64,000 bases of DNA. Origin: Archaeoglobus neptunius. Its GTDB lineage: Archaea > Halobacteriota > Archaeoglobi > Archaeoglobales > Archaeoglobaceae. Of the stretch, positions 1,791-13,856 are shown piece by piece. The stretch is from positions 62,001-126,000 of the forward strand of contig NZ_JAEKIW010000002.1 of NCBI RefSeq assembly GCF_016757965.1, written 5' to 3'. How positions within the stretch are numbered: the stretch's first letter is position 1; each line of letters starts with the position of its first letter. Under the pieces are notes generated by a model. It searched no databases. It was given only the letters and a program-made list of their open reading frames with translations, and was not told where the DNA came from. The position numbers and the translations under genes were made by a program.

Positions 1791-2366
1791 TTAAAACTGC
1801 CGATCGGTGCTTCCAAGCAGACCCCTCAACCACTCGCTCAAATGAATCCTGTAGGTTTTACCGAACCTTTCCCTTACGATCAAGTTCTTCTCTTCCAGCT
1901 TCTTAACTATCATTGAAATTTTAGAGTGGGAAAAACCTGTCCTGAAGTGCAGGGAGTCCTGGGTTATACCGTCGTTCTCCAGTATTATTTTCATCACCGT
2001 CAGCTCGTCTCTTTCAAGCAGATTTTGGATTAGTTCCAGGGTTCCATTTCCGCTCGCCACCATTCTGTTTTCTTCCATTCCAGATGCTTTCTGCTCCTGT
2101 ATATCCTGCTTTAATTCTCCTCCTTTCCTGTCCTTTTCAGTTAAAAGCACTGCTGTAAAGAAGAGTGCAATTGCCGCAAAGAGAAACAGGAAATTCTGAT
2201 ACAGAGTTATGTACTGGCCCCCCATCTCGACGCATCCGAGGGGGTAGGACGGATAGGGTGGAAACATGTTAAGCAAAAAAAAGATCAGCATGATTGCTCC
2301 AAGCAGTGCCAGCAGATATGCCATCGGCGAGGCTTTGCCAATTTTCAGTTCCATGTCCGACATCAA
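1791..2366 (-). CDS. Membrane-anchored winged-helix regulator (hypothetical)
   Basis: The protein has 191 residues with two hydrophobic segments (about residues 13-35 and 58-76) separated by a short loop with proline and one cysteine (PPYPSYPLGCVEMGG). A charged linker follows, then a C-terminal winged helix-turn-helix of MarR/ArsR type (TVMKIILENDGITQDSLHFR then GFSHSKISMIVKKLEEKNL). This matches a known archaeal architecture in which the DNA-binding domain faces the cytoplasm and the short external loop or membrane part may sense a signal. Possible starts are ATG 2366, 2363 and 2354. It points away from the ArsR-ATPase pair, so a role in metal response is only positional inference. Confidence 0.7.
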   Translation of the reverse strand: MMSDMELKIGKASPMAYLLALLGAIMLIFFLLNMFPPYPSYPLGCVEMGGQYITLYQNFLFLFAAIALFFTAVLLTEKDRKGGELKQDIQEQKASGMEENRMVASGNGTLELIQNLLERDELTVMKIILENDGITQDSLHFRTGFSHSKISMIVKKLEEKNLIVRERFGKTYRIHLSEWLRGLLGSTDRQF

Positions 2367-2470
2367 ATAACATTGTTAAAAGATTTTCGGTGCAGTTGTC
2401 AGACTGTTCTAAGGTCCTTTTTAACCTTAATCCAGCTCCTTTGACTTTGGATGCCCTCATGAGAGAAAGT

Positions 2471-2498
2471 TTTATAAAACATTTGAGCAATTGTTCAA
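2471..2498 (+). promoter_or_regulatory. TATA box and ArsR/SmtB-type operator of the metal-ATPase operon
   Basis: TATA box TTTATAAAA (2471-2479) is centred about 26 nt before the ATG at 2501, as expected for a leaderless archaeal transcript. Between them lies TTGAGCAATTGTTCAA (2483-2498), an inverted repeat with one mismatched pair. It resembles the TGAACA-n2-TGTTCA core of ArsR/SmtB-family operators. A repressor bound here would block initiation directly. Confidence 0.6.
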
Positions 2499-2500
2499 TT

Positions 2501-2860
2501 ATGGAATCCAGAGCTCCTGCATGTAGGAGTTTAAGTGTGGGAGAGTATGTTGACGAGATCGTATCAAGCTTACCATTGGACGACAAAATCGTCGAGCTGG
2601 CGGAATTTCTTCAGGCTTTTGCCGATTCGTCTAGGCTGAAAATTCTTCTTGCACTGTCAAGGAGGGAGCTGTGCAATTGCGATCTGTCAGCGATAACAGG
2701 ACTGTCCGTTTCCGCTGTATCACATCAGCTCAGGATTTTAAAGGATAAAAAGCTTGTGAAATACAGAAGAGACGGGAAGAACGTATTTTACAGCCTAGAT
2801 GATGAACACGTTGCGGCAATTCTCAGAATAGCGATGGAGCACGTGGGTGAGAGGAGATGA
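2501..2860 (+). CDS. ArsR/SmtB-family metal-sensing repressor (CadC-like)
   Basis: The protein has 119 residues from ATG 2501. The frame is open further upstream (to 2294), but the TATA box and operator sit inside that extension, so 2501 is preferred. The winged helix contains LSVSAVSHQLRILKDKKLVK. Two classical metal sites are visible: ELCNCDL, matching the alpha3 ELCVCDL motif of CadC/ArsR with an N-terminal Cys (APAC) as possible extra ligand, and an alpha5 site D-x-H-x10-H-x2-E (DEHVAAILRIAMEHVGE) as in SmtB/CzrA zinc sensors. The stop overlaps the ATPase start in an ATGA. Likely role (inference): derepresses the downstream Zn/Cd exporter when metal binds. Confidence 0.9.
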   Translation: MESRAPACRSLSVGEYVDEIVSSLPLDDKIVELAEFLQAFADSSRLKILLALSRRELCNCDLSAITGLSVSAVSHQLRILKDKKLVKYRRDGKNVFYSLDDEHVAAILRIAMEHVGERR

Positions 2861-4908
2861 AAAGGTACAGGCTTAAAGGGTTGAGCTGTGCAAGCTGCGC
2901 TGCAAACATAGAGGAGGAGCTGAAGAAGCATGCCAATTTTGCAGCAGTGAACTTCTCCACTTCTGAGCTTGTAGTTGACACAGAGGACGAGGAGAAGGTC
3001 GTGGAGATCATCAAGAAGGTAGAACCGAAAATCGAGGTTATAAGGGTTGAGGAGGAAGAGAAAACAGAAGATGAAGAGCCCGGAGACGTAAAGAAGGAGA
3101 TATTTCAAATAGCTCTTTCCGGAATCCTGTTTCTCCTAGGAATGATCTTTGAGCAGAGTCTTCATGCCTTTCCAGCCGCTGAGTACGCCATCTTCATAGC
3201 GGCCTACTTTACAGCGGGCCACAGAATCCTGACGAACGCTGCAAGAAACGTCAGGAGAGGTGTTTTCTTTGAGGAGAACTTTCTGATCAGCATTGCTACG
3301 ATCGGAGCAATAGCAATCCACGAGATGCCAGAGGCAGTTGCGGTGATGCTCTTTTTCAGGATTGGAGAGTTCATGCAGGATCTGGCAGTTGGAAAATCGA
3401 GGAGATCCATCAGGTCTTTGCTCGCCATCAAGGCCGATTACGCTAATCTGAAGGTGGATGGAGAGGTAATGAAGGTTAAACCGGAGGATGTTAAGGTTGG
3501 AGACCTGATAGTGATTAAGCCGGGTGAAAGAATACCGCTCGACGGAGTTGTTGTTGAGGGCACTTCTGTCGTCGATACATCGGCCCTAACAGGAGAGGCC
3601 AAACCAAGAGAAGTCAAGAAGGGTAGCGAGGTACTCTCGGGAATGGTGAACCTGAGCGGTCTTCTTACAGTGAGGGTCACAAAGCCCTTCTCAGCCTCAA
3701 CGGTTTCAAGAATTCTCGAGCTCGTTGAAGAGGCTGCAGGGAGGAAGGCAAAGGCTGAAAAATTCATAACCCGCTTTGCCCGCTACTACACACCGGCTGT
3801 GATAGCTCTTGCATCGGCAATTGCCGTCATACCGCCTCTTGCCTTCAACCAGCCTTTCGCCCCCTGGCTTTACCGGGCCCTCGTTCTGCTAGTAATTTCC
3901 TGCCCATGTGCTCTCGTCATTTCCATTCCGCTAAGCTACTTCGCAGCTATCGGAAAAGCTGCAAGGAGGGGTGTGCTCATCAAGGGTGCAAACTTCATCG
4001 ATGTGCTGAAAGCAACGAAGGTTGTAGCGATGGACAAAACCGGAACTCTGACGGAGGGAAAGTTTAAGGTTGCAAAGATCGTTGCTGTAAATGGATTCAG
4101 CAAGGAGGACGTGTTGAAATTCGCCGCCATGGCCGAGATGCACTCCAATCACCCCATCGCCAGGTCAATCATTGAGGCTTATGGCAATGCGGACCTGGAG
4201 GTGAAAGACTACAGGGAAATTGCGGGCAGAGGTGTTGTGGCAAGCGGAGACGGGCTGACCATAGCTGCAGGAAATGATCTGCTGATGCACGAAATGAAAA
4301 TTGATCACGAGTTCTGCGATGTTGATGGGACTGTGGTGCATGTAGCGGTCGATAACAGATATGCTGGCTACATCGTCGTTGCTGATAGTCTAAAGGAAGA
4401 TGCCAGGCAGGCTGTTGAAGAGCTGAAGGCTGTCGGATGCAAAGTTGTGATGCTTACAGGAGACAGCAAGGAGGTGGCTGAAAAAATCGCCGACCAGCTC
4501 GGCATCGAATTTTATGCTGAACTGCTGCCTGAAGACAAGGTGAGGGTAATAGAGAAAATCAGAACCGACGAGGGGATTGTGGCCTTCGTTGGCGATGGAA
4601 TTAACGACGCTCCCGTCATTGCGAGGGCTGACGTTGGCATTTCCATGGGGGCGATGGGGAGTGATGCGGCCATTGAGGTCGCTGACGTTGTCATCATGGA
4701 CGACAAACCCTCAAAGGTGCCAAAGGCAATACGACTGGCGAAAAGGACGCAGAATGTGGTGTGGGAGAACATTGGAGTAGCTCTGGCGGTAAAGGGGTTC
4801 TTCATAGGTCTCGGTGCCCTTGGAATGGCAACTATGTGGGAGGCTGTATTTGCAGACGTGGGCGTGACGCTGATTGCAGTGGCAAATTCGATGAGGTTAC
4901 TGCGGTGA
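2857..4908 (+). CDS. Zn2+/Cd2+/Pb2+-type P1B-ATPase (ZntA/CadA-like)
   Basis: A 683-residue heavy-metal exporting P-type ATPase. Visible parts in order: N-terminal metal-binding domain with GLSCASC (residues 8-14), an acidic linker, actuator domain TGE (ALTGEAKP), the membrane metal site SCPCALV near residue 348, phosphorylation motif DKTGT near 392, SNHPIA (the HP motif of the nucleotide domain), TGD, and GDGINDAP near 578. The last membrane helix has ADVGVTL; an Asp at this place with the CPC motif marks the P1B-2 (Zn/Cd/Pb) class rather than copper pumps. It is co-transcribed with the overlapping metal sensor. The N-terminal Cys motif contains Ser/Ala rather than the acidic GMDC form, so metal preference is inferred mainly from the transmembrane motifs. 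Confidence 0.93.
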   Translation: MKRYRLKGLSCASCAANIEEELKKHANFAAVNFSTSELVVDTEDEEKVVEIIKKVEPKIEVIRVEEEEKTEDEEPGDVKKEIFQIALSGILFLLGMIFEQSLHAFPAAEYAIFIAAYFTAGHRILTNAARNVRRGVFFEENFLISIATIGAIAIHEMPEAVAVMLFFRIGEFMQDLAVGKSRRSIRSLLAIKADYANLKVDGEVMKVKPEDVKVGDLIVIKPGERIPLDGVVVEGTSVVDTSALTGEAKPREVKKGSEVLSGMVNLSGLLTVRVTKPFSASTVSRILELVEEAAGRKAKAEKFITRFARYYTPAVIALASAIAVIPPLAFNQPFAPWLYRALVLLVISCPCALVISIPLSYFAAIGKAARRGVLIKGANFIDVLKATKVVAMDKTGTLTEGKFKVAKIVAVNGFSKEDVLKFAAMAEMHSNHPIARSIIEAYGNADLEVKDYREIAGRGVVASGDGLTIAAGNDLLMHEMKIDHEFCDVDGTVVHVAVDNRYAGYIVVADSLKEDARQAVEELKAVGCKVVMLTGDSKEVAEKIADQLGIEFYAELLPEDKVRVIEKIRTDEGIVAFVGDGINDAPVIARADVGISMGAMGSDAAIEVADVVIMDDKPSKVPKAIRLAKRTQNVVWENIGVALAVKGFFIGLGALGMATMWEAVFADVGVTLIAVANSMRLLR

Positions 4909-4924
4909 TCTGTCAAGCATGATG

Positions 4925-6958
4925 CTACATTTTCAGCAATCTAGCATTTATCGCCACGATGACGGTGCTGAGGCTCATCAGAACTGCCCCGGCTGCTGGA
5001 GTTAAAAGAAAGCCGAAATTGTAAAGCACACCTGCTGCCAGAGGTATCGCAAATGAGTTGTAACCGGTTGCCCAGAGCAGGTTCTGCTTCATCTTCGAGT
5101 AGGTCTTTTTCGAGAGCTCGATAATCGTCGCAACATCCCTCGGATCGTTCCTCACAAGTATGATGTCTGCGGTTTCAATTGCAACATCCGTTCCGGCTCC
5201 GATGGCGATGCCCACATCGGCCTGAGCCAGGGCCGGGGCATCGTTAACACCATCACCCACCATGGCCGTGACGTACTTCTGCTGCACCTCTTTAACCTTC
5301 TCAGCCTTTTCATGCGGTAAAACTTCTGCAAAGTAGTCATCCAGACCCAGTTCCTCGGCCACCCATTTTGCCACGAATCTGTTGTCTCCGGTGAGCATCA
5401 TGCATTTTATCCCCATCGCTTTCAATCTCGCTACTGCCTCCTTGGACTCCTGTCTTATTTTATCCGCCAGAGCGATTGCGCCTGCAACTTTTCCGTCTTC
5501 AAGCAGGAAAACTACAGTTTTACCCTGCTGCTTCAACCTCTCAACCTTCTCCTCCACCTCAATTCCTTTCTCCTTGATGTACCCCGGACTCACAACCATG
5601 AATCTCCTGCCGTTAACAGCGCCTTCAACACCTTTCCCCGGTATTGCCCTGAACTCTTCAACCTCTTCCAGTTTCATTTGTCTCTTTTCCGCTTCCTCAA
5701 CAATGGCCGCCGCGATTGGATGCTCCGATTTTGCTTCGAGAGATGCAGCGATTTTCAGCACCTCCTCTTCGCTGCCGTTGAAGGAAATGATGTCCGTCAC
5801 ACCAAAGCTCCCCTCCGTTAGCGTACCTGTCTTGTCAAAGATTATCGCCTGAAGATCCTTTGCCCTCTCAAATGCCTGTCTTTCTCGTATTAGCAATCCG
5901 GATTTTGCTGCAAGGGAGGTGGAGACTGCAACAACGAGCGGAATTGCCAATCCTAGGGCATGAGGGCAGGCTATAACCATAACCGTCACAGCCCTCTCTA
6001 TTGCGAAGACGAATTCCATTCCAAGGGCGAGCCAGGCAACAAGCGTCACGGTTCCTACGGCCAGTGCAACAATCGTCAGAAACAGAGCCGCCCTGTTGGC
6101 AAGGTCCTGTGTTTTTGACTTGCTCTCCTGCGCTTGCCTCACGAGCTCGATAACCTGATTGAGATACGTATCCTTTCCTGTTTTCTCAACCTCGACGACG
6201 ATTGATCCATCTCCGTTTATAGCGCCGCCAATGACTTTGTCTCCGGGTTTTTTGGATACTGGCTTTGATTCGCCCGTCAGCATCGCCTCGTTAACGAAGG
6301 TTTCACCTTCCACCACAATCCCATCAACAGGAATCTTCTCTCCCGGCTTCACCAGCACCCTATCTCCCGGCTTAAGCTGTTCGACCTTTACATCCACCGT
6401 CTCTCCGTTTTTAACCAGATGGGCTTCTGACGGCATGATCTTGACGAGTTCCTCCAGAGCGCGAGAAGCACCCAGAACGGATCGCATCTCGATGTAGTGT
6501 CCGAGGAGCATGATGTCTATCAGCGTGGCGAGCTCCCAGAAGAAGAATTTGCCCTTCAAACCAAAAACGACCGCAGAACTGTAGAAATAAGCAACGCTTA
6601 TTGCAACCGCTATTAATGTCATCATTCCGGGCTGTGCTTTTTTCAACTCATCAAACAGTCCACGAAGGAAGGGATAGCCTCCGTAGAAGTAAACCGCTGA
6701 CGACAGCAGGAAAAGGATATAGAGAGAGCCAAAAAACTCGAGTTTGAAATTAAAGAAGTTCTGAATCGCAGGAGACAGGATGAGAATGGGAACTGTTAAG
6801 ACCAATGAAACGTAAAATCTCCTCTTGAAATCCTCCATCATGTGCCTGTGGTGATCGTGAGCGTGCTTCATTCCTTTCATTTCCCGGACATCCTTGCCTG
6901 CATGCTCACTCTCCCCATGTCCGGAATGATCCATACCCTCCATTTCGTGCTCCTTCAT
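4925..6958 (-). CDS. copB: CopB-type copper P1B-ATPase
   Basis: A 677-residue copper-exporting P-type ATPase. The N-terminal 42 residues are rich in His and Met (for example HAHDHHRHMM) in place of a folded metal domain. The membrane motif is ACPHALG near residue 331: CPH instead of CPC defines the P1B-3/CopB class. DKTGT lies near 372, SEHPIA marks the nucleotide domain, GDGVNDAPA the hinge, and the last helices carry YNSFAIP and MSLSTVIVA. The class is known for Cu+/Cu2+ and Ag+ export. It begins 1 nt after the stop of the SHOCT gene, so the two are translationally coupled. It ends 16 nt from the convergent Zn/Cd ATPase. Confidence 0.94.
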   Translation of the reverse strand: MKEHEMEGMDHSGHGESEHAGKDVREMKGMKHAHDHHRHMMEDFKRRFYVSLVLTVPILILSPAIQNFFNFKLEFFGSLYILFLLSSAVYFYGGYPFLRGLFDELKKAQPGMMTLIAVAISVAYFYSSAVVFGLKGKFFFWELATLIDIMLLGHYIEMRSVLGASRALEELVKIMPSEAHLVKNGETVDVKVEQLKPGDRVLVKPGEKIPVDGIVVEGETFVNEAMLTGESKPVSKKPGDKVIGGAINGDGSIVVEVEKTGKDTYLNQVIELVRQAQESKSKTQDLANRAALFLTIVALAVGTVTLVAWLALGMEFVFAIERAVTVMVIACPHALGLAIPLVVAVSTSLAAKSGLLIRERQAFERAKDLQAIIFDKTGTLTEGSFGVTDIISFNGSEEEVLKIAASLEAKSEHPIAAAIVEEAEKRQMKLEEVEEFRAIPGKGVEGAVNGRRFMVVSPGYIKEKGIEVEEKVERLKQQGKTVVFLLEDGKVAGAIALADKIRQESKEAVARLKAMGIKCMMLTGDNRFVAKWVAEELGLDDYFAEVLPHEKAEKVKEVQQKYVTAMVGDGVNDAPALAQADVGIAIGAGTDVAIETADIILVRNDPRDVATIIELSKKTYSKMKQNLLWATGYNSFAIPLAAGVLYNFGFLLTPAAGAVLMSLSTVIVAINARLLKM

Positions 6959-6959
6959 C

Positions 6960-7286
6960 CTACCCCTCCATCTCCTCTTTTATCCTCCTGTATTCCTCTT
7001 CGGTTATCTCTCCCCTCGCATATCTTTCCTTCAGAATTTCCAGCGGTGTCTTTTCCGTTTTGGCCATCTCGCCCTTAGTTTCTCTCAAAACAATATATAT
7101 GAGCAGAAATACTATTCCGAGCATCGGAATTACGACGAGAATGAACCACAGCAGCCCGTTCATACCTCTTTTTTCAGCGTCTTTGTACACCAGGTATCCG
7201 ATAACGAGAAGTGGAATCCACCAGATGAACATTCCAATTCCGAACAACGGGAGGAACATCATGTAAGGATATATGAGTCCATTCAT
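6960..7286 (-). CDS. SHOCT-domain membrane protein upstream of copB
   Basis: 108 residues with two transmembrane segments (about residues 8-33 and 44-66) and a C-terminal SHOCT domain (PLEILKERYARGEITEEEY). SHOCT is a short C-terminal oligomerisation-type domain found at the ends of many small membrane proteins. The gene is in an operon with copB. Its function is unknown; a role as small partner or assembly factor of the ATPase is inference from linkage only. The start ATG 7286 is preceded by direct repeats that may be its operator. Confidence 0.8.
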   Translation of the reverse strand: MNGLIYPYMMFLPLFGIGMFIWWIPLLVIGYLVYKDAEKRGMNGLLWFILVVIPMLGIVFLLIYIVLRETKGEMAKTEKTPLEILKERYARGEITEEEYRRIKEEMEG

Positions 7287-7615: not shown

Positions 7616-7654
7616 AAAACGTTCTGCAGATCTTTAAAACGTTCTGAACGTTTT
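7616..7654 (+). promoter_or_regulatory. Inverted and direct repeats upstream of the CuA cluster
   Basis: AAAACGTTCTGAACGTTTT (7636-7654) is a perfect 9-bp inverted repeat around one base. Its left half, AAAACGTTCTG, also occurs at 7616-7626, exactly 20 bp upstream. Half-related TGACGTT elements follow at 7670-7676 and 7701-7707. The arrangement suits a dimeric regulator binding cooperatively about 80-115 bp before the first gene. Confidence 0.5.
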
Positions 7655-7681
7655 GGCAGCTCCAAATACTGACGTTTCAGC

Positions 7682-7699
7682 GGGCAACACCTATTGCCC
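7682..7699 (+). promoter_or_regulatory. Dyad GGGCAA-n6-TTGCCC
   Basis: A perfect 6-bp inverted repeat with a 6-nt spacer ends 32 nt before the ATG at 7732. It could be an operator overlapping the transcription start or a 5-prime leader hairpin. A weak TATA-like CCAAATAC lies at 7662-7669. Confidence 0.35.
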
Positions 7700-7731
7700 A
7701 TGACGTTAACAGTGTTTTGAGGTGATGTGAG

Positions 7732-7998
7732 ATGGACTGGAAGAAGGTCGGAATCGTGGTGGCCCTTGCAGTTGCTGCAGGGCTGTATGTTGCGGCTGCA
7801 ATGCCCTGGGGAATGATGGGATACATGGGATACGGTGGATACGGCATGCCCATGATGGGCGGATACGGGCCAGGGTACGGAGGTATGGGATATCCGGGCT
7901 ACCAAGGATATGATGTAAATCAGACGCAACCGCAGGGCTATTACGTGCCGTATGGCTACTACGGCGGTCACGGCTGTCCGATGATGGGATACTGGTAG
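7732..7998 (+). CDS. Met/Gly/Tyr-rich small exported protein, putative Cu(I)-binding
   Basis: 88 residues. An N-terminal hydrophobic segment (about residues 6-24) acts as signal or anchor. The rest is low complexity, dominated by Gly, Tyr and Met with clusters such as MPWGMMGYMG, GMPMMGG and a C-terminal GGHGCPMMGYW. Clustered MxM/MM with His and Cys is typical of extracytoplasmic Cu(I)-binding segments (PcoC/Ctr-like Met motifs), which fits the neighbouring CuA and CopB genes. Ribosome-binding site GAGGTGA sits 6 nt before the ATG. The next gene starts 13 nt downstream. No known family was recognised; the copper role is inference. Confidence 0.7.
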   Translation: MDWKKVGIVVALAVAAGLYVAAAMPWGMMGYMGYGGYGMPMMGGYGPGYGGMGYPGYQGYDVNQTQPQGYYVPYGYYGGHGCPMMGYW

Positions 7999-8011
7999 GT
8001 GGCTGGCGGAT

Positions 8012-9877
8012 ATGCGTAAGATTTTTCCTATTTTTTTAGCTCTACTCCTTTTAGGACTTGCAACAACTGCAGGATTTCAAGTACAGACTTCCAGGGGCAC
8101 GGAGAAGGTCGTTTATATTGAGGCATTTCAGTTTGGATACCGAGTTGTGGCGATACAGGAAGGGGACAGAATATACAGAACGGACTCCTTAAGGCTGAAC
8201 GCAGGCGATACGGTTACCTTCCACGTTGTAACGAAGGATGTCACCCATGGGTTCACCATAGAAGGTATAACGGATGATGTGGCCGAAAATCTGCTCGTTT
8301 TGCCCGGCAGAACTCTTGTAGTCGGTCCAGTTACCTTCAACGAGCCGGGAAAGTACAGAATCAGGTGCTCAACCAACTGCGGTTCCTTACATCCATTCAT
8401 GACCATGGATATCGTGGTTGAGCCGAACGTTCCCTATTACGCTCTTTCAGGCTTCGTCATCATGACAGGTATGGCCGCATTGCTCTACAGCGGTAAAAGC
8501 GGTGGCAGGGAAATTAATTTTAAGACCAGATTTCTTAAATCGAGGGCTCTGATTTTCATCCTCACGACACTGAATCTGTCGATGTTTCTGCTGATAATTC
8601 TTACAGGACTTTTCGGCAGCGTTATTGGCAGCGAAAATTTCTCAATCGCGGTTACGTGGATACTCTGGTTCGCTCTGGTTGAATTTGCAATACTCTTTGC
8701 AGCGAGGGCCTGGTGTGCAGTTTGCCCGATTCCGATAGTGGGTGAATGGTTGCGAAGAGGGCGATTTCTTGGAGCGAGGAGGGTGATACCAGAGAAAGGA
8801 AGCTTTCCTGTCAAGTACCGGAACATGTGGATACCGGCCATCGGTTTCCTTGCGCTTTCGCTCTTCATACCATGGATAGTGACGAAGCCTCTCGTTACGG
8901 CTCTTCTCTTCCTTTCCCTTTTCATCGCTGCCACAGCATTCTACCTGGTCTACCCGCCGCGCTACTTCTGCAAACATGTCTGCCCGGCTGGGGGATACAT
9001 CGGCTACCACTCCAACGCATCGCTGCTGGCTCTGAGAAGCATTGACAGGGAGAAATGCAGGAGATGTGAGAAATTCTGCCTCAAGGGCAGCGATGAAGGG
9101 TACCCATGCCCGTGGAAAATCTACCCGGGTGGAAACGATGAAAACACATACTGCGGACTCTGCTTTGAATGTCTGAGAACCTGCAGGTATGACAACATCG
9201 CCCTGAAGCTCAGATTACCTTTCGAGGAGCTCGCCAGAAAGGCCATAAGGGCTGCAAAGTCCAGAAAGCTTGACGAAACGGCGATGGGCTACATAAGATT
9301 TGGTCTGGCAATATTCTATGAGCTGTTCTTCTTCGGCAGTATCTACTGGCTAAAGGATTTCGGAAATCTCGGCAACCCCTACGGAGTAAACCTTGAAAAC
9401 GCCCATCTGCTTGTTCCGTCCATTTTCGGAGTTATGAAGTGGTCGATTTGGGCGGCAATTGTTTTGTCAGCAATTCTAGCAATTGCTGCGCTCTACTACG
9501 CCTTCAGCTTTATAGCAGCAAAGATTGCCGGACTCGATCCACAAAAGGTTTTCGTAGCGTTCAGCTACTCACTCGCACCATACGGTCTTCTCGTATGGGC
9601 CGGATTCGCAATTGGATTGCTCTCATACTTCTACACCTACCCACTCAATGCCTTTCTCGATCCCTTCGGTCTGGAGAAAAACGCCTTTCCAGCATCCCTG
9701 ACTGCAAAACAGATAATACTCCTTCAGGCCCCCTTCATATCCCTAGCCCTCGCCACTGCCATCATAGCTACAAGAAAGATAGCTGAGAGGCTTACTGAAA
9801 AATCAGCGATAGCGGTGATTTACAGCATACCGCACATTCTTATGGCCCTGATACTTGTAAAAATAGTTGCGGGGTGA
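8012..9877 (+). CDS. CuA-cupredoxin fused to NapH/NosR-like polyferredoxin membrane protein
   Basis: 621 residues. A signal sequence (1-20) is followed by a cupredoxin domain (about 28-138) with His in VTHGF (near 78) and CSTNCGSLHPFM (119-130). That gives C-x3-C-x3-H-x2-M plus an upstream His, the complete dinuclear CuA ligand set of cytochrome oxidase subunit II and N2O reductase. Next come several membrane helices with CAVCP (near 234) and CKHVCP (near 319), the twin motif of NapH/NosR-type proteins. Cytoplasmic cluster ligands follow (CRRCEKFC near 348, CGLCFECLRTC near 379), enough for two [4Fe-4S] clusters, then further helices. It could pass electrons between quinol or cytoplasmic donors and an external copper centre. 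I know of no characterised protein with this order. The overlap and spacing tie it to the next CuA gene. Confidence 0.85.
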   Translation: MRKIFPIFLALLLLGLATTAGFQVQTSRGTEKVVYIEAFQFGYRVVAIQEGDRIYRTDSLRLNAGDTVTFHVVTKDVTHGFTIEGITDDVAENLLVLPGRTLVVGPVTFNEPGKYRIRCSTNCGSLHPFMTMDIVVEPNVPYYALSGFVIMTGMAALLYSGKSGGREINFKTRFLKSRALIFILTTLNLSMFLLIILTGLFGSVIGSENFSIAVTWILWFALVEFAILFAARAWCAVCPIPIVGEWLRRGRFLGARRVIPEKGSFPVKYRNMWIPAIGFLALSLFIPWIVTKPLVTALLFLSLFIAATAFYLVYPPRYFCKHVCPAGGYIGYHSNASLLALRSIDREKCRRCEKFCLKGSDEGYPCPWKIYPGGNDENTYCGLCFECLRTCRYDNIALKLRLPFEELARKAIRAAKSRKLDETAMGYIRFGLAIFYELFFFGSIYWLKDFGNLGNPYGVNLENAHLLVPSIFGVMKWSIWAAIVLSAILAIAALYYAFSFIAAKIAGLDPQKVFVAFSYSLAPYGLLVWAGFAIGLLSYFYTYPLNAFLDPFGLEKNAFPASLTAKQIILLQAPFISLALATAIIATRKIAERLTEKSAIAVIYSIPHILMALILVKIVAG

Positions 9878-9881
9878 TTGT

Positions 9882-10259
9882 ATGGAGAAGAGAGAGTTTG
9901 CCGCACTGCTTTTTGTTGTTATCGCCCTGGCAATTCCCGTATACCTGACCATAGACAGGCTTTCTGAAAAGCAGACAGGTTCTGAAATCGTAATCAATGC
10001 CTACGTCCCCGAATCAGGTGGATTTAAGCCGAATTATATAGTCGTACCAAAAGGTAGCAGAGTCAAACTTGTTTTCAAGTCAGAAGACGTGACGCACGGC
10101 ATTTTCATTCCGGATCTCGGAATAAACAAGCTGATTCCTGCAGGCGATGAGGTGGTCGTGGAGTTCGTTGCTGAAAAGAGCGGTGTCTATCCGTTCATGT
10201 GCTCAGTGTACTGCAGCCCCTATCACAGGCTCATGCGGGGAACGATTGTAGTCGTTTGA
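9882..10259 (+). CDS. Membrane-anchored CuA cupredoxin (CoxII-like domain)
   Basis: 125 residues from ATG 9882, chosen because GGGGTGA (9871-9877) lies 4 nt before it; a TTG at 9867 is less likely. An N-terminal anchor (about 6-23) is followed by a cupredoxin fold with DVTHGIF (His near 72) and CSVYCSPYHRLM (Cys107, Cys111, His115, Met118). This is a full CuA motif C-x3-C-x3-H-x2-M. The Glu that usually sits between the cysteines in oxidase subunit II is Val here. The domain matches CoxII/NosZ electron-entry domains, but no oxidase subunit I or N2O reductase is present in the window. Likely an external one-electron carrier or copper-handling partner of the fusion protein upstream. Confidence 0.88.
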   Translation: MEKREFAALLFVVIALAIPVYLTIDRLSEKQTGSEIVINAYVPESGGFKPNYIVVPKGSRVKLVFKSEDVTHGIFIPDLGINKLIPAGDEVVVEFVAEKSGVYPFMCSVYCSPYHRLMRGTIVVV

Positions 10260-10341: not shown

Positions 10342-11100
10342 ATGAAATATTGCACTATAGCATTTATTCTGATCACAATCTTCACACTTGGATGTCTCGG
10401 ACCAGAGGAAGGGAGTTTTACGCATACCATCGACTATACAATTTCCCTGACTTTTGGTGAGCTCGTGGAGGGCAGGACGATAAAGCCATCCTCCAAAGTC
10501 GATGAGCTTGAGAACATTACTGTGATTGTTCCTCTGCCAGTGATTGACGGTCAGCCCATTAAGCTCCAGAACCTAACGATTCCCGCCGGCTGGAAAGCGG
10601 AGATCACTGAAACACCCCACGGCACGATGTTGAAGCTGGAAGGGAAAAACGTAAGGACCTGGAAAATGTCTCCAATGCCCGTACCCGTTGAGAGCGGAAA
10701 AACTCCAACAGTAACGCCCACAATGGTTAAAAAAGCTGCTGGCTACGAATTTGAGCTGCGACTTCAAATGAACAGGGAGATCAACACCCTCAACCCCCTA
10801 AACGGTGAGTTCGTTCTTCAACCCAAATACGAACTGAGGAGGATAAACTGCCCTGAGGAATATTTAAAGCACTACAGATACGTGAAGTGCTACAGTTACA
10901 GTACCGTGGTATTTTACGCCTCACATCCTTCAATCGATGCGGGCATGTATATCTCGCTCGAGGGCAGAAATTACTGGTTCCAGATGGGATGGACCGGAAA
11001 TGAGTTCTACGACCACATACTGGCATTTCTAACCGAAGATGGGTGGAACAATGTGACTGGAAGTCTGGAAACAGGGAAAGGTGTGTATCTGAGCACGTAA
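10342..11100 (+). CDS. Putative exported lipoprotein, paralogue of the broken gene at 21081
   Basis: 252 residues with an N-terminal hydrophobic segment ending in a lipobox-like FTLGC (Cys18), so probably lipid-anchored on the outer face of the membrane. The mature part is beta-rich, with Asn-x-Ser/Thr sites. I recognise no named family. Segments LENITVIVPLP, TPHGTMLKLE and DGWNNVTG correspond in order and spacing to LDNFTLVFP, TKYGKMWKVE and KGWLNVTG in the disrupted gene at 21081-21736. The start is supported by an AT-rich TATA-like element (10312-10323) about 25 nt upstream. It has its own promoter, so linkage to the CuA genes is loose. Confidence 0.75.
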   Translation: MKYCTIAFILITIFTLGCLGPEEGSFTHTIDYTISLTFGELVEGRTIKPSSKVDELENITVIVPLPVIDGQPIKLQNLTIPAGWKAEITETPHGTMLKLEGKNVRTWKMSPMPVPVESGKTPTVTPTMVKKAAGYEFELRLQMNREINTLNPLNGEFVLQPKYELRRINCPEEYLKHYRYVKCYSYSTVVFYASHPSIDAGMYISLEGRNYWFQMGWTGNEFYDHILAFLTEDGWNNVTGSLETGKGVYLST

Positions 11101-11323: not shown

Positions 11324-12229
11324 TCAGCCAAGCTCCTCAAGCAGCTTGCATGCCTGACAGACCTTTTTCGGCGTTGGTTCACCACATCTCTCGCACCTGT
11401 TGAGGTCGATCTGTGGATACATTTCTCTCAAACACGGGATCAGTTTTTCAAAGCTGTTCATAACCGAAAACTTTCTGCCGGGATACTTGTTCTCAAACTC
11501 GTAAAGGAAGTCCCTAACGCTCGCCCTTACCGGGAAATAGCTGTACGGACATTCTTCAAAGTCCATTGGCAGGTTATGAAGAAGGCCGTAGACCACAACC
11601 TCTTTTTCATAAATGTATCTGAAAGGCTTTATTCTCATAATCAGGCCTTCCTGAACCCTTTGCGGTACGAGTCTTGCCATTCTCTCCATGTCCGCATTCA
11701 GAAAGTTCAGCAGAATTGTTTGCGTTTCATCATCAAGGTTATGCCCTGTGGCCAGCTTCGTGGCCCCCATTTCCCTCGCAGTTCTGTTGAGCAGGTATTT
11801 CCTGAAAACACCGCAGTATGTGCACGGCTTTTTGTCCCCCCTCTTCACCATTTCATCAAGCGTCATTCCAAAGTTTTCCTCAAACGATACAACAACGTGT
11901 TCGATCCCAAGCTGTTCCGCCACTTTTCTTGCAATCTCAACTGTCGGCGGTCGGTAGTTGGATATACCCTCGTCGATGGTTATGGCAAACAGTTCCAGGT
12001 CTCTCCTCTTTTCATACAGTTTCGCAAGAGTGTAGGTGAGGGTGACGCTGTCCTTTCCACCGCTCAGAGCGATTGCAATTCTGTCGTTCTTCTCAATCAT
12101 CTTAAATTTTCGAACTGCAAGCTTTATCCTCCTCTCAAAATCCTCGATAAAGTGTCTCTTGCAGAGATGCCTGTTTGAGTGTCTCTGGAATATTACTGCC
12201 CTTCTATCACACCTAGAACACCCTATCAT
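11324..12229 (-). CDS. tRNA 2-thiolation protein, TtuA/NcsA/Ctu1 family
   Basis: 301 residues. An N-terminal zinc finger (CSRCDRRA and CKRH) precedes the PP-loop ATP pyrophosphatase motif SGGKDS (near residue 55). The catalytic Cys region includes CTYCG, and TGHNLDDE follows. A C-terminal zinc finger has two CxxC pairs (CERCG, CQAC). The family activates the tRNA uridine (U34 or U54) by adenylation and inserts sulfur, often with an iron-sulfur cluster. The start codon overlaps the stop of the siroheme decarboxylase-like gene by 4 nt, so it is the last gene of a three-gene operon. Confidence 0.9.
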   Translation of the reverse strand: MIGCSRCDRRAVIFQRHSNRHLCKRHFIEDFERRIKLAVRKFKMIEKNDRIAIALSGGKDSVTLTYTLAKLYEKRRDLELFAITIDEGISNYRPPTVEIARKVAEQLGIEHVVVSFEENFGMTLDEMVKRGDKKPCTYCGVFRKYLLNRTAREMGATKLATGHNLDDETQTILLNFLNADMERMARLVPQRVQEGLIMRIKPFRYIYEKEVVVYGLLHNLPMDFEECPYSYFPVRASVRDFLYEFENKYPGRKFSVMNSFEKLIPCLREMYPQIDLNRCERCGEPTPKKVCQACKLLEELG

Positions 12230-13167
12230 CTCTCTCTCAGATTTGCTTTACTGTAAATTGTCTCTGCTTCCTCCACGTCCTCAATCTGCAAAATCTGCTG
12301 CCTTATTTTTTCAATCGGACCTTTGCTGATAGCATGAACCATGAAGTAAACAGGATAGTTCCACTTTTCATTCACAATCCTTTCGACCAGATGTGTAATC
12401 TGGGGGAATTTCTGAAGTAAAAACATTGCCACCTTCTCAGGCTTTTTTGATATCCTGAGAACCGTCATTCCATTTTCCTTAAATCCAACCTTCCTCTCCC
12501 TCAGCACACCGCTGAAATCTCTTCCCACACCTTTTGCCATCAGTTCTTTGATAACGTCCACGACTTCCTCTTCCGAATATCCTGAGAACTTCGAAAAAGG
12601 TCTTTTCGCAATCTCCAGAGACTCCAGAGACCTCACGAATTCTTCATCAAGTCCCAGCTCTCTTACCAGCGGAACATTTTCAGGTTCCAGCCCTCTCTCA
12701 CTCCAGGAAACGCCTTTTTCCAAGTCGTATTTTACGTCCATTTTGTAAACCCTCTTTGTGGGCAGGATAACAAAATCCTCAACTCTGCATTCAGATGCAA
12801 GCTTTTCAACAACCCCTTCAATCTCCTCCACATCTCTGCCCTTCACGGTAAACCAGACGTTGTAGTATGCATCTCTCAGAAAGTTATGCTTGACCCTGAA
12901 CTCGTCATACCTGTTTATCCTTTCAGCAACCTCTTTTACACTTGATGCCCTGAAACCGACAAGTGCTGCTCTCCTGTAGCCTGAAAAAGCCCTGTAATTG
13001 AGATTCAGGCCGTACCTCTTAATCACACCACTCGCCATGTACTCTCTTACCGCTTCAAAAACCTCATCCTCACTCCTTCCCAGATTCTCGGCCAAGTCCG
13101 AGAGGGGTGATGTCGTGAGTGGTAAATTGTACTGCAATTCCATGAGGAGATCGACATCGAGATTCAA
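12226..13167 (-). CDS. Siroheme decarboxylase-like protein, double length (AhbA-AhbB-type)
   Basis: 313 residues, about twice the usual 150-170 of AhbA, AhbB or NirD/L/G/H. The first half has an Lrp/AsnC-like helix-turn-helix (LPLTTSPLSDLAENLGRSED) and then HNFLRDAYYNVWFTV, matching the HNYxRDHxYNxWFT siroheme-binding motif. The second half repeats the fold in weaker form, with HLVERIVNEKWNYPVYFMV in the equivalent place. Siroheme decarboxylases remove two acetate carboxylates from siroheme to give 12,18-didecarboxysiroheme, a step of the alternative heme route used by archaea and sulfate reducers. It follows the Met8-like gene with a 4-nt overlap, so siroheme is made and consumed in one operon. 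It may be a fused heterodimer. Confidence 0.82.
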   Translation of the reverse strand: MNLDVDLLMELQYNLPLTTSPLSDLAENLGRSEDEVFEAVREYMASGVIKRYGLNLNYRAFSGYRRAALVGFRASSVKEVAERINRYDEFRVKHNFLRDAYYNVWFTVKGRDVEEIEGVVEKLASECRVEDFVILPTKRVYKMDVKYDLEKGVSWSERGLEPENVPLVRELGLDEEFVRSLESLEIAKRPFSKFSGYSEEEVVDVIKELMAKGVGRDFSGVLRERKVGFKENGMTVLRISKKPEKVAMFLLQKFPQITHLVERIVNEKWNYPVYFMVHAISKGPIEKIRQQILQIEDVEEAETIYSKANLRER

Positions 13168-13856
13168 AATTCTATCCCTCCATTCTCAGCTTTCTTTTTT
13201 CCGGAAACATATTCCTCTACAATTTCTTCTGCAAGCTTTCTTGCTTCATCCACCTTCTCCTGTTTTACAAGTTCCACAAATCTTACATCAGAGCTGACGA
13301 TGGAGTACAGTTTCATCCTCAGATTTACGGGTACATTTCTTTTCTTCATGTAACTCTTGAGGTGATCCATAGCATTGAGGAAGTAAAAAAGCTCTTCTTC
13401 TTCATCAAGAACTCTCTGAAACTTGTCTCTGACTTTTCTCGCAACAACACCACTTTTTCCCTCTGTTGTCACTGCAAATCTCACCCCGTTTTTGCCACCT
13501 TCAAAAGGAACTACAACCTCAGTCATTTTCGCATCATTTGCCAGATTTACCATCGCCTTATGCTTTTCAGCAGCTTCAATAACCCTTTCATTAAAATCCT
13601 TACTGCCAATCGCAACCACAATTAGGTGAAAGTTTGATGCCAGCTTCTCAAAATCCATACTTTCAACTGATGCCCTTACAAGTTCAACCTTTCCCTCTTC
13701 AGAGAGTTTGAGCAGCTCGGACGAAAAGTCCTGACTGAAAACCGAAACCTCGGCTCCAGCCTCTATGAATTTCTTCGCTCTCAGAGTGCCGACTCCCCCA
13801 CCACCAATTACCGCAACCCTTTTCCCCTGAAATTCTATGTAAAGTGGTATTCTCAT
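13164..13856 (-). CDS. Precorrin-2 dehydrogenase / sirohydrochlorin ferrochelatase (Met8/CysG-N-like)
   Basis: 230 residues. The N-terminal NAD-binding fold has VAVIGGGGVGTLRAKKFIEAG. The catalytic region NLANDAKMTEVVVPF carries the family Asp, and the helical dimerisation domain includes EGKSGVVARKVRDKF. It oxidises precorrin-2 to sirohydrochlorin and may insert Fe2+ to give siroheme, needed for sulfite reductase and for heme by the siroheme route. It is the first gene of an operon with the decarboxylase-like and TtuA genes. A 53-nt gap separates it from the upstream RHH gene, enough for its own promoter. Confidence 0.88.
   Translation of the reverse strand: MRIPLYIEFQGKRVAVIGGGGVGTLRAKKFIEAGAEVSVFSQDFSSELLKLSEEGKVELVRASVESMDFEKLASNFHLIVVAIGSKDFNERVIEAAEKHKAMVNLANDAKMTEVVVPFEGGKNGVRFAVTTEGKSGVVARKVRDKFQRVLDEEEELFYFLNAMDHLKSYMKKRNVPVNLRMKLYSIVSSDVRFVELVKQEKVDEARKLAEEIVEEYVSGKKKAENGGIEF

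Follow-up and report, generated by a model that had tools for sequence, protein, structure and literature searches.

The gene cluster at positions 7732–10259 of the analysed DNA probably encodes a NosR-like membrane electron conduit, in which CuA replaces FMN and electrons would run outward from the quinone pool or from ferredoxin. It lies in a window of 64,000 nucleotides (the whole stretch that was analysed) from the genome of Archaeoglobus neptunius, which amounts to 2.1 Mb in 32 contigs and is 99.99% complete. In the proposed path, menaquinol or cytoplasmic ferredoxin would deliver electrons to a NapH-like core, whose two [4Fe-4S] clusters would lie on the cytoplasmic side. From there they would cross the membrane to a first CuA site (CuA1) at the extracytoplasmic amino-terminus of a fusion protein, pass to a second, membrane-anchored CuA protein (CuA2) and finally reach an extracytoplasmic acceptor, either a cytochrome c or a reductase. 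In a probable Ferroglobus, this acceptor would be N2O reductase. A NosR-like role is proposed because NosR, the presumed electron donor of NosZ, has a membrane module in common with NapH. Ligands for CuA and for iron-sulphur clusters, a predicted topology, an operon-like spacing, and the conservation and neighbourhoods of the genes were all read from sequence; copper binding, the direction of the electrons and their partners are inferred.

Architecture of the gene cluster

The cluster consists of three plus-strand genes, coding for proteins of 88, 621 and 125 amino acids. The gap between the first gene and the second is 13 bp, and that between the second and the third 4 bp. The features of the cluster and of its surroundings in the window are:

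1791–2366, minus strand: membrane-anchored winged-helix regulator (DUF7343/MarR-like), with homologues adjoining all six type-A clusters (see below)
2294–2860, plus strand: ArsR-family regulator (PF01022, 3.7e-16), true start probably further in
2857–4908, plus strand: P1B ATPase of the Zn/Cd/Pb type with an HMA domain (TIGR01512 and ZntA-like scores above the Cu model)
4925–6958, minus strand: CopB-type P1B ATPase with a CPH motif and a His/Met-rich amino-terminus, divergent from the cluster (TIGR01511, 673.7 bits)
6960–7286, minus strand: SHOCT-domain membrane protein, 108 amino acids, upstream of copB (Pfam SHOCT, 8.2e-11)
7732–7998, plus strand: small Met/Gly/Tyr-rich protein, 88 amino acids, exported or membrane-anchored (open reading frame)
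8012–9877, plus strand: fusion protein, 621 amino acids (open reading frame, Pfam and NCBIfam models, PDB matches, alignment, topology, Foldseek)
8099–8422, plus strand: first CuA domain, residues 30–137 of the fusion (PDB CuA matches; 2cua is the top Foldseek match)
8246–8248, plus strand: His79, the first CuA histidine (DVTHGF), invariant in the fusion family and aligned with T. thermophilus CuA
8366–8401, plus strand: CuA ligand loop of the fusion, CSTNCGSLHPFM, kept outside the Mo-enzyme clade
8714–8728, plus strand: CX2CP motif (C235-C238-P) in a cytoplasmic loop (invariant; topology)
8969–8986, plus strand: CX3CP motif (C320-C324-P), invariant
9056–9184, plus strand: two sets of [4Fe-4S] ligands, C349, C352, C356 and C366, and C381, C384, C387 and C391 (alignment)
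9269–9874, plus strand: carboxy-terminal multi-transmembrane region of the fusion, weakly Yip1-like
9882–10259, plus strand: second CuA protein, 125 amino acids, with an amino-terminal transmembrane anchor (open reading frame, sequence and fold matches)
10200–10235, plus strand: ligand loop of the second CuA protein, CSVYCSPYHRLM

The fusion protein starts with a transmembrane segment, followed by the extracytoplasmic CuA cupredoxin, another transmembrane segment, a NapH/NosR-like membrane core with a cytoplasmic iron-sulphur region and the carboxy-terminal multi-transmembrane part. For the latter, the Yip1 match (E 0.0088) is seen in the probable Ferroglobus protein only. Positions 8366 and 10200 are the only two occurrences of the string C-x3-C-x3-H-x2-M in the six reading frames of the window, where 0.03 are expected per shuffled window, and both are accompanied by the upstream DVTHG histidine. 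In sequence searches, both domains hit the CuA domain of ba3 oxidase (E 3.9e-11 and about 1e-10), and the same CuA domain is the top Foldseek match for both of their AlphaFold2 models. The families nearest to the core are NapH (NCBIfam) and Fer4_5 (Pfam). The fusion scores 36.6 and 27.5 bits with two NCBIfam NapH models, both below the cut-offs (234 and 213, respectively); these models match 9 and 10 of the 11 members, with TIGR02163 at E ≤ 0.1 in 10 of the 11. The CoxB model TIGR02866 gives 42.7 and 49.1 bits, below its cut-off of 147.7. FMN_bind (PF04205) was found neither in the fusion protein nor in any of the 11 genomes containing the module. Simple hydropathy, on which the topology is based, places the Cys-Pro motifs and the iron-sulphur cysteines in the cytoplasm and the CuA domain outside. 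AlphaFold2 modelled the core with low confidence (mean pLDDT 66.6), and the Foldseek search of the fusion was restricted to its CuA domain because the core structure was too uncertain. No membrane-bridging cofactor was recognised in the module; a quinone is the likeliest bridge between the cytoplasmic iron-sulphur sites and the external CuA.

The 88-residue protein ends in YYVPYGYYGGHGCPMMGYW and is the counterpart of A. fulgidus AF0141. Four other loci (L027, L029, L030 and L032) have an orthologue with a similar carboxy-terminus at the corresponding position, and Pfam and NCBIfam searches with it gave zero matches. It is a possible extracytoplasmic copper binder and, together with the neighbouring copper ATPase, probably serves the copper supply of the CuA sites.

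Much of what a sequence-only reading of this region had claimed is borne out, namely two consecutive genes with complete CuA ligand sets, the first of them fused to a NapH/NosR-like membrane core, and a Met/Gly/Tyr-rich exported protein preceding them. Other claims need to be amended. The start given there, 7616, is intergenic, the cluster beginning at 7732. Of the two motifs described as CxxCP, the first is indeed CX2CP, while the second is CX3CP. Both [4Fe-4S] ligand sets are present, but the full eight cysteines are found only in Archaeoglobus: in the alignment of relatives, C352 is not kept elsewhere, whereas C384 is nearly invariant. The copB gene is divergent, as claimed, but does not adjoin the cluster: the SHOCT gene sits between them, and the Zn/Cd/Pb-type ATPase and ArsR genes lie beyond copB.

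Distribution and genomic contexts

The module, in fused or split form, is present in 11 of 57 Archaeoglobales genomes, a count that leaves out short matches to CuA or to the core only; a further scan of contigs gave four more loci, mostly from the same genomes. The counterpart in genome G002 is 82% identical to the A. neptunius fusion protein. No other combination of CuA and NapH was seen among 394 genomes of the phylum, and the next-best NapH-like matches that were inspected in its other families (G342, G363, G217, G336 and G319) are without a CuA neighbour. Four genomic contexts can be distinguished.

Type A comprises the clusters of Archaeoglobus and allies (A. neptunius, the probable A. 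fulgidus (G001), G002, G009, G013 and the JdFR-43 contig). A membrane-anchored winged-helix regulator lies beside all six, several of these regulators having an HHYMMMG loop, and a Met-rich protein is present in several. Metal P-type ATPases and/or ArsR genes lie near four of the six (A. neptunius, G001, G013 and G009). The recurring copper-transport genes also fit copper handling.

Copper handling, the main rival to an electron conduit, is improbable. Cu(II) outside the cytoplasm or on its way in would then be reduced by the iron-sulphur core, and the pair of CuA-like cupredoxins would hold Cu(I) or pass it on with CopB or CopA, in the way of bacterial CcoG and CupA. The divergent copB of A. 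neptunius, the P1B ATPases and/or ArsR genes near three of the five other type-A clusters, the Met-rich protein and the regulators with their HHYMMMG loops speak for it. CupA, also a CuA-like cupredoxin, is a sequence and fold match; CcoG, an iron-sulphur membrane protein containing two [4Fe-4S] clusters, reduces Cu(II), and CupA has cupric reductase activity in vitro (PMC7558416). However, the module has retained the two histidines of a genuine CuA site, where CupA combines a bis-thiolate with a Met-rich Cu(I) site (PMC7558416), and it is NapH-like rather than CcoG-like by curated models: the NCBIfam matches of the 11 members at E ≤ 0.1 include no CcoG model. Furthermore, the A. fulgidus operon responds to CO plus sulphate (PMC4543118), and two of the contexts described below, beside nosZ in the probable Ferroglobus and within Mo-enzyme operons, indicate respiration.

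Iron uptake of the FtrABCD kind, with the cupredoxin and the iron-sulphur membrane protein serving an FTR1 permease, has the smallest probability of the alternatives. FtrB is a fold match (8vuk), and in A. fulgidus an FTR1 gene is located about 6.7 kb from AF0144. A motif scan of the neighbourhoods found FTR1 only there, the FTR1-type motif being absent near all other clusters and in the window, and the link was rejected; the FtrB site also differs, with conserved E86 and E93 at the ferrous-iron mimic.

In type C (G031, G055 and G056), a halocyanin-type blue copper protein is encoded downstream in two of the three. Type F is found in the probable Ferroglobus (G022), where CuA, NapH core and second CuA are separate genes. 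The set is divergent from nosZ-nosL-x-nosD-nosF-nosY, at the position expected for NosR, and has a Mo reductase set on its opposite side; an FMN_bind (NosR) domain was found nowhere in the G022 genome.

In type B (a second copy in G002, together with G032 and G053), the module is in an operon with the alpha subunit of a type II enzyme of the DMSO-reductase family, closest to ethylbenzene dehydrogenase (2ivf, E 1e-113), and with a heme-b gamma subunit, a membrane protein and a small protein. At all three loci, both proteins lack the Cys, His and Met of the CuA loop (for example DPVPCDALNPFE and NTVPNGPMSPFQ). At every other locus, the loop ligands are kept in both proteins, with a longer loop in the second protein of Ferroglobus. 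The fusions of the three type-B loci group in a single clade (support 100/100), and one joint loss thus accounts for the missing ligands; the pattern counts as a single event, and all three contigs end within the alpha gene. Two domains that keep or lose their copper together would most simply be two stops on a single electron path. The joint loss of both sites in a sister clade is a natural experiment on the two copper domains as one chain.

Proposed path of the electrons and candidate acceptors

CuA potentials of oxidases lie well above that of menaquinone. With menaquinone at −80 mV (PMC4543118), the typical CuA potentials argue for an outward direction. Flow the other way, from an extracytoplasmic donor (a reduced metal, a cytochrome or the type-B hydrocarbon dehydrogenase) into the quinone pool, would be uphill and is quite improbable, more so than copper handling. 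The ethylbenzene-dehydrogenase-like enzyme of type B would deliver electrons if it oxidised its substrate, but the CuA ligands are gone precisely there, so that type B says little about the forms with CuA.

For the preferred outward conduit, partner enzymes were sought in the whole A. neptunius genome. Subunit I of heme-copper oxidases (COX1, PF00115), NosZ, L-NosZ, NosL and FMN_bind proteins were not found there, and the searches for NosZ and L-NosZ matched nothing but the CuA domains. What had been reported earlier for the window, that it contains neither oxidase subunit I nor NosZ, holds for the whole genome as well. The missing acceptor enzymes (COX1, NosZ, L-NosZ and NosL), the family scores far below their cut-offs, the weak model of the core and the lack of a recognised membrane-bridging cofactor are points against the conduit. 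A NosZ that makes use of these genes, which the sequence-only reading had named as a refutation of its own proposal, is suggested by gene position in the probable Ferroglobus and is not encoded in the A. neptunius genome. Of three Mo enzymes of A. neptunius, one belongs to a Psr-like set with iron-sulphur, NrfD-like and chaperone genes and has no visible link to the cluster.

A search for heme c proteins in the A. neptunius genome gave one weak PF13442 match, which is a monoheme cytochrome c of the AF0190 type with a Met/Gly/Tyr-rich amino-terminus (C8:32223-32765); counts of the CxxCH pattern in DNA were too noisy to be used. In G002, an orthologue of this cytochrome is encoded about 2 kb from the CuA genes, and CcmF and CcmH are located directly upstream of the cluster. 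In A. fulgidus, a decayed second copy directly follows AF0144. Cytochromes of this type are present in 10 of the 11 genomes with the module and in 13 of the 46 others (Fisher p 2e-4, with kinship ignored). Neighbourhood, co-occurrence and published co-expression make the Met-rich monoheme AF0190-type cytochrome c the best candidate acceptor in Archaeoglobus.

Relation to known systems

The A. fulgidus counterpart, AF0141–AF0144, was described in 2015 as a NapH-like respiratory complex, in which a CuA protein lies on either side of a NapH homologue (Hocking et al. 2015, PMC4543118). The gene set itself is thus not new, in contrast to what the sequence-only reading had supposed. The gene order (Met-rich protein, CuA, NapH-like core, CuA) is identical, although the fusion is split into two frames in A. 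fulgidus (AF0142/AF0143), where A. neptunius has one intact protein. These genes are among the few with transcripts raised on CO plus sulphate, together with AF0189–AF0190, and the set is conserved in A. sulfaticallidus and in Ferroglobus, adjoining nosZ in the latter (PMC4543118). No functional test of the Archaeoglobus gene set was found in the literature. Transfer of electrons from ferredoxin to menaquinone was proposed, in a scheme that gives the CuA domains no role (PMC4543118). As an account of the module, a ferredoxin:menaquinone oxidoreductase feeding Qmo and sulphate reduction agrees with the upregulation on CO plus sulphate and with cytoplasmic iron-sulphur clusters. It is very improbable nonetheless, for it leaves two CuA domains without a job, and 11 of 57 genomes is a sparse distribution for a step central to sulphate reduction.

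The outward conduit shares with NosR an extracytoplasmic amino-terminal redox domain, a transmembrane core with two Cys-Pro motifs, two cytoplasmic [4Fe-4S] sites (predicted from ligands and topology) and, in the probable Ferroglobus, the position in the nos cluster. NosR is the proposed electron donor of NosZ, and its membrane module is common to NosR and NapH/RdhC. The A. neptunius fusion differs in containing CuA instead of covalent FMN and an extra carboxy-terminal transmembrane region; nosZ and nosL are absent from its genome, adjacency to nosZ being confined to G022. NapH, part of the NapGH quinol dehydrogenase, resembles the core in its Cys motifs and is its best curated model match, but the score is 36.6 against a cut-off of 234, the CuA domain is fused to it and neither NapA nor NapG adjoins. 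The fold and complete ligand set are those of the CuA domains of cytochrome c oxidase subunit II and NosZ, while the module is without a catalytic partner and has its CuA fused to an iron-sulphur membrane core. The statement that CuA is otherwise known only from oxidase and N2O reductase does not stand, PmoD being a further membrane-anchored CuA protein; its CuA site is formed by a homodimer and has a ligand set different from that of the module (PMC6189053). By the tests made, the module is not a member of NosR, NapH, subunit II or CupA, and it would work most like NosR.

Among the roles suggested earlier, the electron outlet is thus the best supported, and redox-controlled copper handling ranks well below it. 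What is new is the distribution over 11 of 57 genomes, the NosR-like position in the probable Ferroglobus, the type-B context with its joint loss of ligands and the cytochrome c candidate. The usual place of CuA is where electrons enter the reduction of oxygen or N2O. The module may, somewhat speculatively, represent a further use of it as a general outlet across the membrane: an iron-sulphur core oxidising quinol or ferredoxin would feed a two-step CuA relay on the outside of a strict anaerobe. Such an outlet would serve N2O reductase, a cytochrome c and perhaps metals outside the cell interchangeably, and in one lineage the two copper sites would have been given up at the same time, on the acquisition of a Mo enzyme. 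If true, CuA would be an electron exit in hyperthermophilic anaerobes without an oxidase or NosZ, and the module an archaeal alternative to NosR, with a bearing on how Archaeoglobales reach high-potential acceptors.

Heme-copper oxidase genes

Genes for heme-copper oxidase subunit I are present in two Archaeoglobales genomes, in the neighbourhoods L040 (genome and contig G029:C27) and L041 (G028:C137); the L040 protein matches PF00115 (1.1e-95). Both neighbourhoods contain the CuA subunit II as a separate gene, plus a small cytochrome c, and the fusion is absent. COX1-family genes, of the oxidase or NO reductase type, are found in three more genomes, which have the module (G055:C5, G056:C32 and G031:C3:88957), and are unlinked to it.

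Apparently split or decayed forms of the fusion gene

In A. fulgidus (L029, 8106-9976), the reading frame shifts where AF0142 gives way to AF0143, dividing the fusion; this is either a sequencing error or a real split. In the relatives the fusion is a single protein. In neighbourhood L027, a fusion-gene remnant of about 20-35 residues (7756-8206) lies beside a reading frame rich in Met and a gene with a YHS domain, suggesting that the module has undergone decay in this lineage; the same probably holds for genome G020. An Archaeoglobus-like cluster is located in L025, on contig MTNE01000194.1, whose title is Thermoplasmatales JdFR-43; this contig is probably misbinned or mislabelled.

Genes around the cluster

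Downstream of the cluster in the window are:
10342-11100, + strand, lipoprotein-like gene (252 aa)
12226-13856, - strand, putative siroheme-to-heme pathway genes

The former has no family match and no relatives in the other neighbourhoods. The latter, assigned by reading only, would be of the regulator-like decarboxylase and precorrin-2 dehydrogenase types.

Membrane-anchored winged-helix proteins with an HHYMMMG loop adjoin the cluster in four neighbourhoods:
L029, 6355-6873
L030, 3060-3542
L032, 6912-7445
L025, 4323-4883

The A. neptunius copy (window 1791-2366) lacks this loop. The loop-containing proteins look like one-component regulators and could be sensors of extracytoplasmic copper.
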